64,000 nucleotides of DNA from Imbricaverruca yamaguchii (Eukaryota > Arthropoda > Thecostraca > Neoverrucidae). Below the pieces are notes generated by a model that searched no databases, was not told the DNA's origin, and saw nothing but the letters and a program-made list of their open reading frames with translations. Both the position numbers and the translations under genes were made by a program. Numbering within the stretch: the stretch's first letter is position 1; every line of letters begins with the position of its first letter. The stretch spans positions 647,501 to 711,500 of the forward strand of contig JAOTOL010001458.1 of assembly GCA_034440575.1 (NCBI GenBank), in the 5' to 3' direction. Of this stretch, positions 8,072 to 26,000 are shown one piece after another.

Positions 8072-11000
8072 CTGGGGACAGCTGCAGCTGGTTACAAGGT
8101 GGTCACACTGGGGGCAGCTGCAGCTCGTTACAAGGTCGTCACACTGGGGACAAGTTCAGCTCGTTACAAGGTGGTCACACTGGGGACAGCTGCAGCTCGT
8201 TACAATGTGGTCACACTGGGGACAAGTTCAGCTCGTTACAAGGTGGTCACACTGGGGACAGCTGCAGCTCGTTACAAGGTGGTCACACTGGGGGCAGCTG
8301 CAGCTCGTTACAAGGTCGTCACACTCGGGACAGCTGCAGCTCGTGACAAGGTGGTCACACTGGGGACAGCTGCAGCTCGTTACAAGGTCGTCACACTGAG
8401 GACAGCTACAGCTCGTTAGAAGATCGTCACACGTGTTGTCATTTTTAGCCAGGTCAGGCACATCTGCAAGCATGGGTGGGTATAGAATGAGGAGGGGCAG
8501 GTGTGACATTCGCCGTTCCACATTCCGTGGGTATAGGATGAGGAGGGGCAGGTGCGACGTTCGTTGGATCACATTCCGCAGGTATGGTATAAGAAGGGAC
8601 AGGTGCGACATTCGTTGGATCACATTCCGTGGGTATAGGATACGAAGAGATAGTTGTGACAAACGCCGCATCACATTCCGTGGGTATAGAATGAGGAGGA
8701 GCAGGTGCGATATCGTTGGATCACATTCCCTGGATATAGGAAGAGGACAGGACCGTCACCGCTCTTCGGCTTGAGGGCTGCTGCACCAGACAATTATCTT
8801 TCCCTTTCCGGATTTCTGATAGGTGCTGGGTGGTGGCACGGCCCCGGATAAAATTTGCTGGACGGGGCGTCATTGTTAACTCCAATGGTGCCAAATCCTA
8901 GCCTTTTGAGCTCCCGTTTTTCCCCAGTAATTTTTTAATCTCCCCCGTAATGTATATGCAATAGGGAATGTATCCTCATTAAGTGTGTGCGGCCATGAGT
9001 GTGTGGAAACTCCCTTTCCCAGTTAGCATACTAGACAAGGCCTTGGATGCTGGAGCACACTGAGTCTGATGACTAAATCCAGCAATAACACGCCATATTT
9101 TAAAAGCACGGGCCATTGCAGTGTCCCCTCCAGATAGCATGCGTTGGGTGAAAATACATATCATACAATATTTACACAATACCTACAGTATTGTAAGTCT
9201 GGTGTAGCTCTCTTTAAATCTGCCGTTGCATTTGCTGCAGCCAAACGTTGCATGAGATTTGAGGCTGAACGTGGTATTTCGTCATGCTTGTCGATGCATG
9301 CCGCCCTCTGAGCTAGTTCGCGGTTTCGCCACTATCACCCGCCCATATTCTGTACGGGTGATAATTTGGTCACATATGAGTCTCATCCAGATGTGTTCTC
9401 ATACATTTGTAAATCAGTGATACCTCGATTTATTTTTGACGTATCAGAATCCCTTGCTTGAGCCCCAACATATCACTGGTTTCAACTTACTTCAGGCAGG
9501 GGTAAGCTGGATATAGTGGTGGGACAGTTGTGTATATGCGTAATTTACGTAAACAATTGCAGTGGCGACCACCGGGCAGGGTTGCTTTAGTGTTGCAGGC
9601 AGTTGTGGAGGAAAGGCATTAAGGATTGGGGAAGTACCACGGCATAAACTTCGACCTATGTATTTATGTATGACCTATGTAATGTATTTCAAGTTTCGTA
9701 TGAAAAAAAAACATCAAGAACATGCAACACGCCAATGGGCCAATAATCAGCTTGCTCTGGTCACGTTTTCTCAACTAGCCCAATACTCAGCTCACTTCAT
9801 TTGTGCGTGCTGTTCCGAAGCCTATACTATGAAAAGCGCATTTCCATCTATGTTCCAAGAGAAAGTCAAAGAAAACTACTTCCGGCATTAAGCAATTGTT
9901 CAAACACGCCAAACATCTGACAACCAATGACGTCACGTCGAGACCCCACACCACGATCCCATTACCGTGTGGCCATGCTTAGCTAATGGCCTTGCCTGGC
10001 ATTCAGACTGCACGTGTGCATAGCCCGCCATATTAGTGAGGAAAGACGCCCATCAGCCGGTGTAGCAACGTTGCAGCGTCTAATTGGTTGATAATTACGA
10101 CTACCAGACGCCGTACCAACATTCGGGTGCCCATTGGTTAAGAATGACACCGATTAGATGCTGTAGCTACGTTTCGGCGCCCTATTGGCTAAGAATGAAG
10201 CTGTGACAACGTTCCAGCCTCTCACTGTAGTAATAATGACGCCGATCAGAAGATGTAGCAACGTCTCGTCGCCCCATTGGTTAAGAATGAAGCTGTGACA
10301 GCGTGGCGGTGCGCCATTGGTTAAGAATGAAGATGTAGCAACGTCTCGACGCCCCATTGGTTAAGAATGAAGCTGTGGCAGCGTGGCGGCGCGCCATTGG
10401 TAAAAAATGAAGATGTAGCAACGTCTCGACGCCCCATTGGTTAAGAATGAAGCTGTGGTGACGTGGCGGCGCGCCATTGGTCAGGAGTGCCGGGGCGGCC
10501 GTGTTGTGCCGCGCCCACGTGCAGCCGTACCTCGACTCCGCGCCGTCGCACCTCCGAGTGGATGCCGAGCACGTCCGGCAGGCGGAACGACAGCTGACAG
10601 CCGCGCTGCGCCGGGTCGCGCGGCGTCAGCTGGCACGCCTCGGGCAGCAGCCGCTCCACTAACACCTCCAGGAAGCCGGTGAGCAGCACCTGCTTCGCTA
10701 TCAGCTCGTCCATGGTGACCTGGTCGAACGTCTGCAGCAGGAGGCATAATCGACTGTCGCAAGACTGCAGTGGGCTTAAGGTTGCAGATCATGGTGCACA
10801 AACATCTCTTGACACAATTCCAAGTAAGATGAGTACCTATGATGTCTGCCATATATGATCAGTAGGTAGGCATAGGCATCTGGTATCTCTATCCTTAGCA
10901 CGCAACCTGGAGGGCCTCGGAAAATTACGCGCACTGGAGGGGGGCGGATTTCGCCCCTCTAAGATCTCAGCTCCTACTGAGGTTAGAGCAACGACATTCA

Positions 11001-23000: not shown

Positions 23001-26000
23001 GAAAAGAAATCCAACATTTCGCGACGTGCTAGCAGATGGCTCGGAAATCATTAATTCCGTTAGCATATTCAGGTACCTAGGAGTGGCATGATTTCAGGCC
23101 ATGTACTCATCTCAGCAACAATCCATGGGATTCTGGCATGGTAAACAAATACTACTGTAACTAACTGATCACATTTTAGGTGCAAGCGCCCTAAAACCCC
23201 AATAACTAATTAAGCGGAGCACTTTTAGGCGTGAAGTCATCTACGAAGAAGCAATGCAATTGTTCCGTGTTGGAAGTGTAGAGACGTTCGGCATATAATA
23301 GCCACTGCACGTGGACGGCATGTATTGTGAAATAAACAAATAAATAAATAAATAATGCTTCGCTACCTCGCTATGGACACAGCCGCGGGCGCATTCGACG
23401 GGCGACGGGCGGCCGGCGCGGCCGTCTGACCTGGGAGCAGACGGCGTACTTGTCGCTGGGGAAGGCGTTCGCCTCGATCAAGATCTTGTGTCGCAGGGGC
23501 GTCGGCTGATAGAAGGCGATCAGCAGCAGGTGCAGGTTCACCGTCAGGCCGTTCATGACTGCCACCTGGCGGCACGGTCGGACACTACAGGTGTGTCGCA
23601 ATCCGTTCCAAACGCTGCCGACCATCCACCACCACCACCACCAGCAGCGCCTCTGTACGCTTGGGCCGGGAAAGACGTGAGACGAAGATGGTGATGGTGT
23701 TAGGTGAGGATGTCATGGTGATGGTGTGAAGCGAAGATGCCATGGTGATGGGGTGAGGTTAGCATGTCATGGTGACGGTGAGAAGCGAAGATGCCATGTT
23801 GATGGTGTGAAGTGAAGATGTCATGGTGATGTTAGGTGTGCTATGGTGATGGTGTGAGGTGTGGATATCATTCTGAAAAAGTGAGGCGAGAATGTCATGG
23901 TGATGGTTTGAGGTAAGGATGCTTTGGTGATAAAGTGAGGTGAGTGTGTAATGGTAATAACATGAGGTAGGGATGTGATGGTGATGATGTGAGAAGAAGC
24001 GATGGTGGTTTGTGAAGCTGGGAAACAATTGTGATGGTGTGAAGTACGGATGTAATAGTGATCAAGTTAAATGAGAATGTGATGTTCACGGTGTGAAGTG
24101 AGAATATGGTGGTGAAAGTGTGAAGTGAGGATGTCATGCTGATAATGTGAGGTGAGTATATGATAGTGATGATGTGAGGTGAATGAGTGATGGTGATGAT
24201 GTGAATGTTATCATGTGGGTTGTTCGAGTTAATTTTATTTGCCGTTCATTCTGTCCTCCCAAATACTTTTCAGTGGTGCCTCAGGAACACAGAATATGTC
24301 AGCATGGGCAGCTTTAGGGTTTGTCCAGTCCTGCTGTGGAAACCGAACAGGCCTGATAATGTTTTCGGGGGCCATTCGATGGCTGGTCGGAAGTTGTCTG
24401 CTGCCCATAGTCAGGTGACCAGTGGCTATATGCTATGCGCGAACGATCCATTCTGTCCGAAGCGCCCTAAAGTCGCCGACTATATGCTATGCCACAATTG
24501 CACATAAGCAATTGTTGCATGAGCAATTGGGATGGCAAAAGCAACTGCGAAAGCAATTGCATAAACATAAGCGATTCGGGGATGTGATGAAAGCATCCTG
24601 GGTGTGTCACGGTTAATTTGTACCTCTCATCCAGTCCTAGCGACTAGCATTCGAACATCTGGCCTCATCAGATCACATCCAGCTTTCCAACCTCACCCAG
24701 TCACGCGCCAGCCAGACTTTTCACCTCATCCTATCACAGACTTCTCACCACATCCAGCCAAGTGCCGGCCAAACTCCTCACCTCATTCGATAACAAACAG
24801 ACTTCTCACCTCATCCAGCCACGCACCAGCCAGACTTCTCACCTCATCCGATCACAACCAGACTTCTCACCTCATCTAGCCAAGCGCCGGCAAAACTTCT
24901 CACCTCATCCGATCACAAACAGACTTCTCACCTCATCCAGCCACGCCTCGGCCAGACTTCTCACCTCATCCGATCACAACCAGACTTCTCATCTCGTCCA
25001 GTCGTGCGCCGGCCAGACTTCTCACCTCATTCGATAACAAACAGATTTCTCACCTCATCCGGCCACGCGCCGGCCAGACTTCTCACCTCATCCGATCACA
25101 AACAGACTTCTAACCTGGTCCAGTCGCGCGCCGGCCGGACTTCTCACCTCGTCCGAGCAGGCGCCCACTAGTCGCGCCTGGGAGGCGTTGACTTCAAGGT
25201 CACAAGTTGTAGCTGGCAAAAAGCCCGTGAAGTGCGTGTCGTTGCCCCTGCGAGAGCACGCATGACAGATGACATGCTGCCGCAGTCGCTGACATTAGAC
25301 AACAGCACACTCGAGGTCAGATTGAGAACGCTACCCGGGCTTGATCGGCGGGTTCACCATGAATAGCATACTGTCTCACCAAGTTGTAATCCGGAATCGT
25401 TGGCAGAAGATTGTAGCCATCGGAGGCCCACTTCATGACTATTATTGGAGGGGTACACTTGTGGATCCAGAGCGGGTGAGAGAGCCATTCCGGCCATTCG
25501 AACTCCTCACATGTCTAAAAGGTCTAAAAGGTCTTAGTATCTTTTGGCCCGCCCCAGACCAACATTAATAATATAATAGGTCGGTTATGTCTTAAACCTA
25601 AAATGTATGACGTATATATGGCCCACACTTCAGATGGTGGCTTAGCGCTTTTTCACGACCAACCCCACCCACCACCCTCCGTCGGGGTTTTTCCACGATG
25701 GCAAAAAAGTATCGAGCAGAGCACCACAAATTGTTCAGTACCATTTTCGTCGTTATTTTTGCGTCTCAGTTGAGATCTTCGTCCTCAGGTCATGTAGGGT
25801 AGTTCACCTAGCTCAGCTCAAAAAAGCACCTTAAAAAATGTTTGAGGATCGAGGTCTCGTACATAGGAAGAGACATTTAAATGAAACTTGTCATGCGGGG
25901 AAATTGGGCAGTGGCTCCAAAATGTACGTCTCGGATTTGTATATATATATCATGCCAATAACCGGCCCATTTCCAGAACATTTTTCTATTTTTGAAATAT

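Follow-up and report, generated by a model that had tools for sequence, protein, structure and literature searches.

Minisatellites straddling five exon-intron junctions in the kynureninase gene of a barnacle

The kynureninase locus and its junction arrays

The window, i.e., the whole stretch of 64,000 nucleotides that was analysed, is rich in minisatellites and carries a kynureninase gene (KYNU) on the minus strand, running from 33603 to 7934 in 10 exons that form a single open frame of 459 codons once joined. All nine introns start with GT and end with AG. The product was identified as kynureninase by NCBIfam model TIGR01814 (403 bits; cut-off 246) and by comparison with the human enzyme (E 6.8e-118). 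Among the best 120 protein matches listed, the closest named ones come from Pollicipes pollicipes (78%) and Amphibalanus amphitrite (72%), and decapod crustaceans and lancelets share about 50% identity. Judged by these identities, the window most probably comes from a barnacle different from both named species. Exon 1 (33435..33603), modelled from the first ATG taken, follows from the joined frame and fits the N-terminal regions of barnacle proteins, and exon 2 (26517..26637) follows from the joined frame and the alignment with relatives. The same two kinds of evidence define the four exons with donors in repeats: exon 3 (25148..25247; donor GAG/GTGAGAAGTC, inside an array, the slash marking the border), exon 5 (22499..22655; CACGG/GTAAGTCAGC), exon 6 (19181..19326; TATAAG/GTGAGTG) and exon 8 (16099..16201; ATGGAC/GTAAGTGCAC). 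The joined frame and the junction repeat scores define exons 4 (23431..23565) and 7 (18508..18617), both junctions of each being free of arrays. Exon 9 (10531..10731), for which the repeat listing was used as well, also has array-free junctions, with a separate array starting about 50 bases into the intron. Exon 10 (7934..8071), taken from the joined frame, ends with the stop codon. Upstream of the coding sequence as modelled, about 66 copies of a 16-base unit (33657-34726) form a minisatellite that ends about 54 bases from the ATG taken as the start. Intron 1 contains about 13 tandem copies of a 27-base unit (31910-32268), not close to any KYNU exon found, and a long run of AT with about 280 copies of AG immediately after it (29258-30014). 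Outside the gene, an open stretch on the minus strand (51805-52350) is strongly exon-like and includes a hydrophobic segment, with no Pfam match at E 0.001.

Using Tandem Repeats Finder, we found that five of the 18 intron edges of KYNU lie inside tandem arrays, namely the donors of exons 3, 5, 6 and 8 and the acceptor of exon 10, and that the repeat unit of each array includes the exon-intron junction. Copies were counted by cutting the arrays at the junction motif, with the used junction included in the count; all five arrays are given on the minus strand, and their unit sizes span 28-46 bases. The array at the exon 3 donor (24663..25156) has 17 junction copies, each with 9-18 exon-like bases, at a spacing that alternates between 28 and 33 bases with a single step of 24. 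The exon 5 donor array (21698..22517) also has 17 copies, of a 45-base unit with 19 exon-identical bases (two copies compared); its steps are mostly of 45 bases, with one of 58, one of 46, and one of 88 between the used donor and the next copy. Four copies and a degenerate one, of about 42 bases with 24-36 exon-like bases (two copies compared), make up the exon 6 donor array (19017..19199). The exon 8 donor array (15937..16109) has four junction copies of a 46-base unit with 23-24 exon-like bases (two copies compared), and a fifth copy of this unit, with 18 exon-like bases, is found at 12254..12290, beyond an inserted LINE. At the exon 10 acceptor (8066..8432) there are 10 copies of a 36-base unit containing CAG/TGTGAC, with only six exon bases per unit. 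The first-pass annotation had placed five KYNU junctions in tandem arrays between 8072 and 25147, and our copy counts and coordinates agree with it. The best local repeat score is 48-73 at these five junctions; no hidden arrays were detected at the remaining 13, with a best intron-side repeat score of 14-18 at 12 of them and of 28 at the exon 5 acceptor. For comparison, the repeat listing includes intronic minisatellites that do not cover a junction, such as those at 8476..8747 (51-base unit), at 10249..10481 near the exon 9 donor (40-base unit) and at 23688..24204 (27-base unit; about 120 bases separate it from the exon 4 acceptor), all three listed with no strand assigned.

The element that splits the exon 8 donor array is a non-LTR retrotransposon (LINE) on the plus strand, at about 12300-15935 (start judged by eye), with an open frame of about 1,000 codons encoding endonuclease and reverse transcriptase domains and with terminal TTTATGTC repeats. 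The encoded protein shares 98% identity with a protein from a JGI contig, suggesting a recent insertion, and the copy of the exon 8 unit on the far side of the element makes the array seem older than the insertion. This history bears on the possibility of assembly error, to which long arrays are generally prone. No specific sign of such an error was found here; against this possibility, one array is split by the LINE, and the inner copies within arrays diverge from each other by a mean of 5 to 17% per site, so that we consider an artefact extremely improbable.

Composition of the units and the copied splice sites

The exonic share of the four donor units was compared with shuffled sequences. 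For exons 5, 6 and 8, the 18-36 exon-like bases upstream of the copied junction were reached in none of 300 shuffles (seven copies compared); for exon 3, the 9-18 such bases gave P values of 0 to 0.01 (three copies). The unit at the exon 10 acceptor contains only six exon bases. Both the junction motif and the exon-like bases recur in the copies, which bears out the proposal that the junction lies inside the amplified unit and that the copies extend on the intron side.

The five units show no similarity to each other beyond chance in 10 pairwise comparisons, the lowest P values being 0.047 and 0.053 before allowing for ten tests; elsewhere in the window they have best-match scores of 21-26, obtained without a shuffle control. 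These comparisons support the view, put forward in the first-pass annotation, that the units are mutually unrelated and that each array probably arose independently. Introners, i.e., members of one dispersed repeat family that carries splice signals and is common to different introns, are alike in combining a repeated sequence with splice signals. The KYNU arrays differ in that their five units are unrelated, and membership in such a family was rejected because no unit-to-unit similarity beyond chance was found in the ten pairs.

The splice dinucleotide, GT or AG, is retained in 44 of the 47 inner copies: 14 of 16 at exon 3, 16 of 16 at exon 5, 2 of 3 at exon 6, 3 of 3 at exon 8 and 9 of 9 at exon 10. 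The count for exon 6 was read from the junction-cut copies; the conservation run, in which one row was out of register, gave 1 of 3. When the splice core was slid along the unit, it did not consistently exceed the remaining positions in conservation: the fractions of shifted windows at least as conserved as the core were 0.07, 0.20, 0.64, 0.91 and 0.96, the figures for exon 6 being unreliable owing to the row out of register. The core at exon 3 is somewhat better conserved than the remainder of its unit (rank 0.07). High retention of GT or AG in a core that is no better kept than its surroundings fits neutral intronic copies of the junction, with the outermost copy in use. Joining the exons at the outermost sites yields the intact 459-codon frame and a protein that aligns without insertions to relatives covering those points, and the outermost copies are, judging by the frame and the alignment, probably those used in splicing.

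Reading from the exons into the arrays leads to stop codons or frameshifts in all five cases: immediately at exons 5, 6 and 8, but only after one open inner copy in the case of exon 3 and after two in that of exon 10. Long in-frame coding use of the arrays was rejected on this ground, whereas short in-frame use of the open copies closest to exons 3 and 10 could occur. In the alignment with eight relatives, each of the five array junctions is free of insertions in every relative that covers it. Five of the aligned proteins are from barnacles, and three of them (P0001-P0003) span all five junctions. The Pollicipes public record (P0004) stops within exon 9, and the Amphibalanus record (P0005) is without about exons 2-3; perhaps these gaps result from introns that are hard to model at those places. 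These data also speak to whether the extra splice-site copies are kept by selection, either because they strengthen or back up the splice site or because they make variant proteins. The retention of GT or AG and the few in-frame codons that the nearest copies could add at exons 3 and 10 would be expected under such selection. However, conservation is not consistently higher in the splice cores than elsewhere in the unit, use of inner copies soon produces a stop or a frameshift, and the relatives covering these points lack insertions, which makes this explanation very unlikely in our judgment.

Junction-spanning repeats in other systems

Tandem repeats spanning exon-intron boundaries have been described in lancelets under the name mirages. 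According to the accessible text of PMC3087553, they occur in Adh3 and in the globin genes BflGb6 and BflGb9, with units of 10-72 bases in Adh3 and of about 150-160 bases in the globins; that of PMC3902484 adds PGBD5 and TnC. The former text describes the mechanism behind them as unclear, notes length instability and puts forward such repeats as possible founders of new introns. The idea that nothing of the kind had been described is contradicted by these reports. As far as these parts of the sources go, the KYNU arrays and the mirages have in common minisatellite-like repeats across donor or acceptor junctions, units of tens of bases (as in Adh3) and many copies with AG or GT. In KYNU, the unit spans the boundary at five junctions (with only six exon bases at exon 10), unit sizes of 28-46 bases are those of minisatellites, and many but not all inner copies carry the splice dinucleotide. 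The name was coined in cephalochordates, a non-structural part of the definition, and here the nearest named relatives of the gene are barnacles. Unlike the mirages, the KYNU arrays sit in a barnacle and at five junctions within one gene; regular splicing is reported to continue in the accessible text on lancelets, whereas the KYNU arrays are known from the genomic sequence of one haplotype. The barnacle arrays look like a further case of known mirage-type arrays in a distant animal group; the resemblance is one of anatomy, and we make no claim that the two sets of arrays have a common origin by descent.

Two other systems are partly comparable. In the potato RdRp gene, an intron arose when a segment carrying splice signals was duplicated in tandem (PMC4974935, accessible part); the duplication likewise crosses an exon-intron boundary, but in KYNU no new intron was seen and the units are present in many copies rather than two. 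Variable internal tandem repeats occur in human genes that lie in segmental duplications, with units averaging 30 bases, some of them at exon-intron boundaries (PMC2812944, accessible part); these lengthen exons or may form new introns, whereas the modelled KYNU protein is unchanged. For barnacles, no report of junction-spanning minisatellites was found in the open-licence literature as judged by titles, and the accessible parts of two barnacle genome papers (PMC8416341, PMC9582164) do not mention them.

Expected and observed numbers, and the preferred explanation

Five of the 12 intronic KYNU minisatellites lie over a junction. These 12 remained after overlapping rows had been merged and after dinucleotide runs (at 19773, 29258 and 29449), arrays with units of 7-8 bases (26907, 15907) and one duplication of 364 bases (11509) had been excluded. 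It should be noted that the sample behind all statistics of excess is one gene, picked after the fact because it was striking. If the founding unit could lie anywhere in the gene, 0.32 junction arrays are expected versus the five observed (P 8e-6). Capping the reach of a placement into an exon at 10, 25 or 40 bases gives expectations of 0.10, 0.24 and 0.38 (P 3e-8 to 2e-5), and placing whole arrays at random over the gene gives 1.87 (P 0.024). We consider the founding-unit null the fairer of these views, because exon bases are part of the unit, which shows that the initial duplication crossed the border. In a separate control, a repeat score of at least 42 in a 40-base stretch was reached at 5 of 18 junctions versus 123 of 936 random intron windows (P ~0.08, calculated by hand). 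Base composition was considered as well: the units of 21 non-junction arrays of the window have a mean GC content of 0.54, compared to 0.46 for intron windows. The 21 arrays were hand-picked from the repeat listing of the window among units of at least 15 bases, after exclusion of dinucleotide runs, of rows that overlapped and of some weak ones (52342, 56858, 62865, 63172). A null model favouring GC-rich seeds raises the expectation to 0.67 (P 3e-4), and the GC-preference null with all 26 arrays of the window as the denominator gives P 2e-4. The GC-richer sequence of minisatellites increases the chance of their being born at exon borders, yet does not fully account for five arrays.

The excess that persists after GC weighting is what would be expected if tandem duplication in this lineage had true hotspots at exon-intron borders, arising, for instance, from R-loops or from breakage linked to nascent transcripts at splice sites. 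Barnacle splice junctions, donors above all, would then be places of array birth, a process tied to transcription or splicing would seed the duplications at exon edges, and lancelets would be alike by convergence. Four of the five junction arrays are at donors, and several lancelet genes have such arrays. Conversely, the evidence comes from a single gene chosen for being striking, the milder controls reach P values of only 0.024 and ~0.08, and the apparent donor excess (4 of 9 donors versus 1 of 9 acceptors) rests on five arrays. We regard the hotspot explanation as unlikely.

The explanation we prefer, to which we assign a probability of about 0.75, is that the five arrays are junction-straddling minisatellites with the anatomy of lancelet mirages, which arose five times independently in one barnacle gene and whose extra copies are tolerated as intron. 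Each array would have started with a short tandem duplication across an exon-intron border, for which slippage, template switching or unequal exchange may be responsible. Because the outermost splice site would keep joining the same exons, the further copies would become intron and be tolerated at little cost; the repeats may afterwards expand and contract as other minisatellites do. The first-pass annotation had suggested growth that is tolerated on the intron side only. Such tolerance explains the shape of the surviving arrays, but not by itself their number: it predicts 0.32 arrays (0.67 with GC preference) where five are seen, so that something else is needed, or luck combined with the choice of a striking window. 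The somewhat better kept core at exon 3 and the short exon part of the unit at exon 10 also fit the preferred explanation less well.

If the pattern is genome-wide in barnacles, a phenomenon reported from lancelets, as far as the accessible sources go, would gain a second, distant home, and the attraction of tandem duplication to splice sites would become countable in many genomes. Arrays of this kind have a bearing on the lengthening of introns, on possible starts of new introns and on wrong exon calls in annotation.
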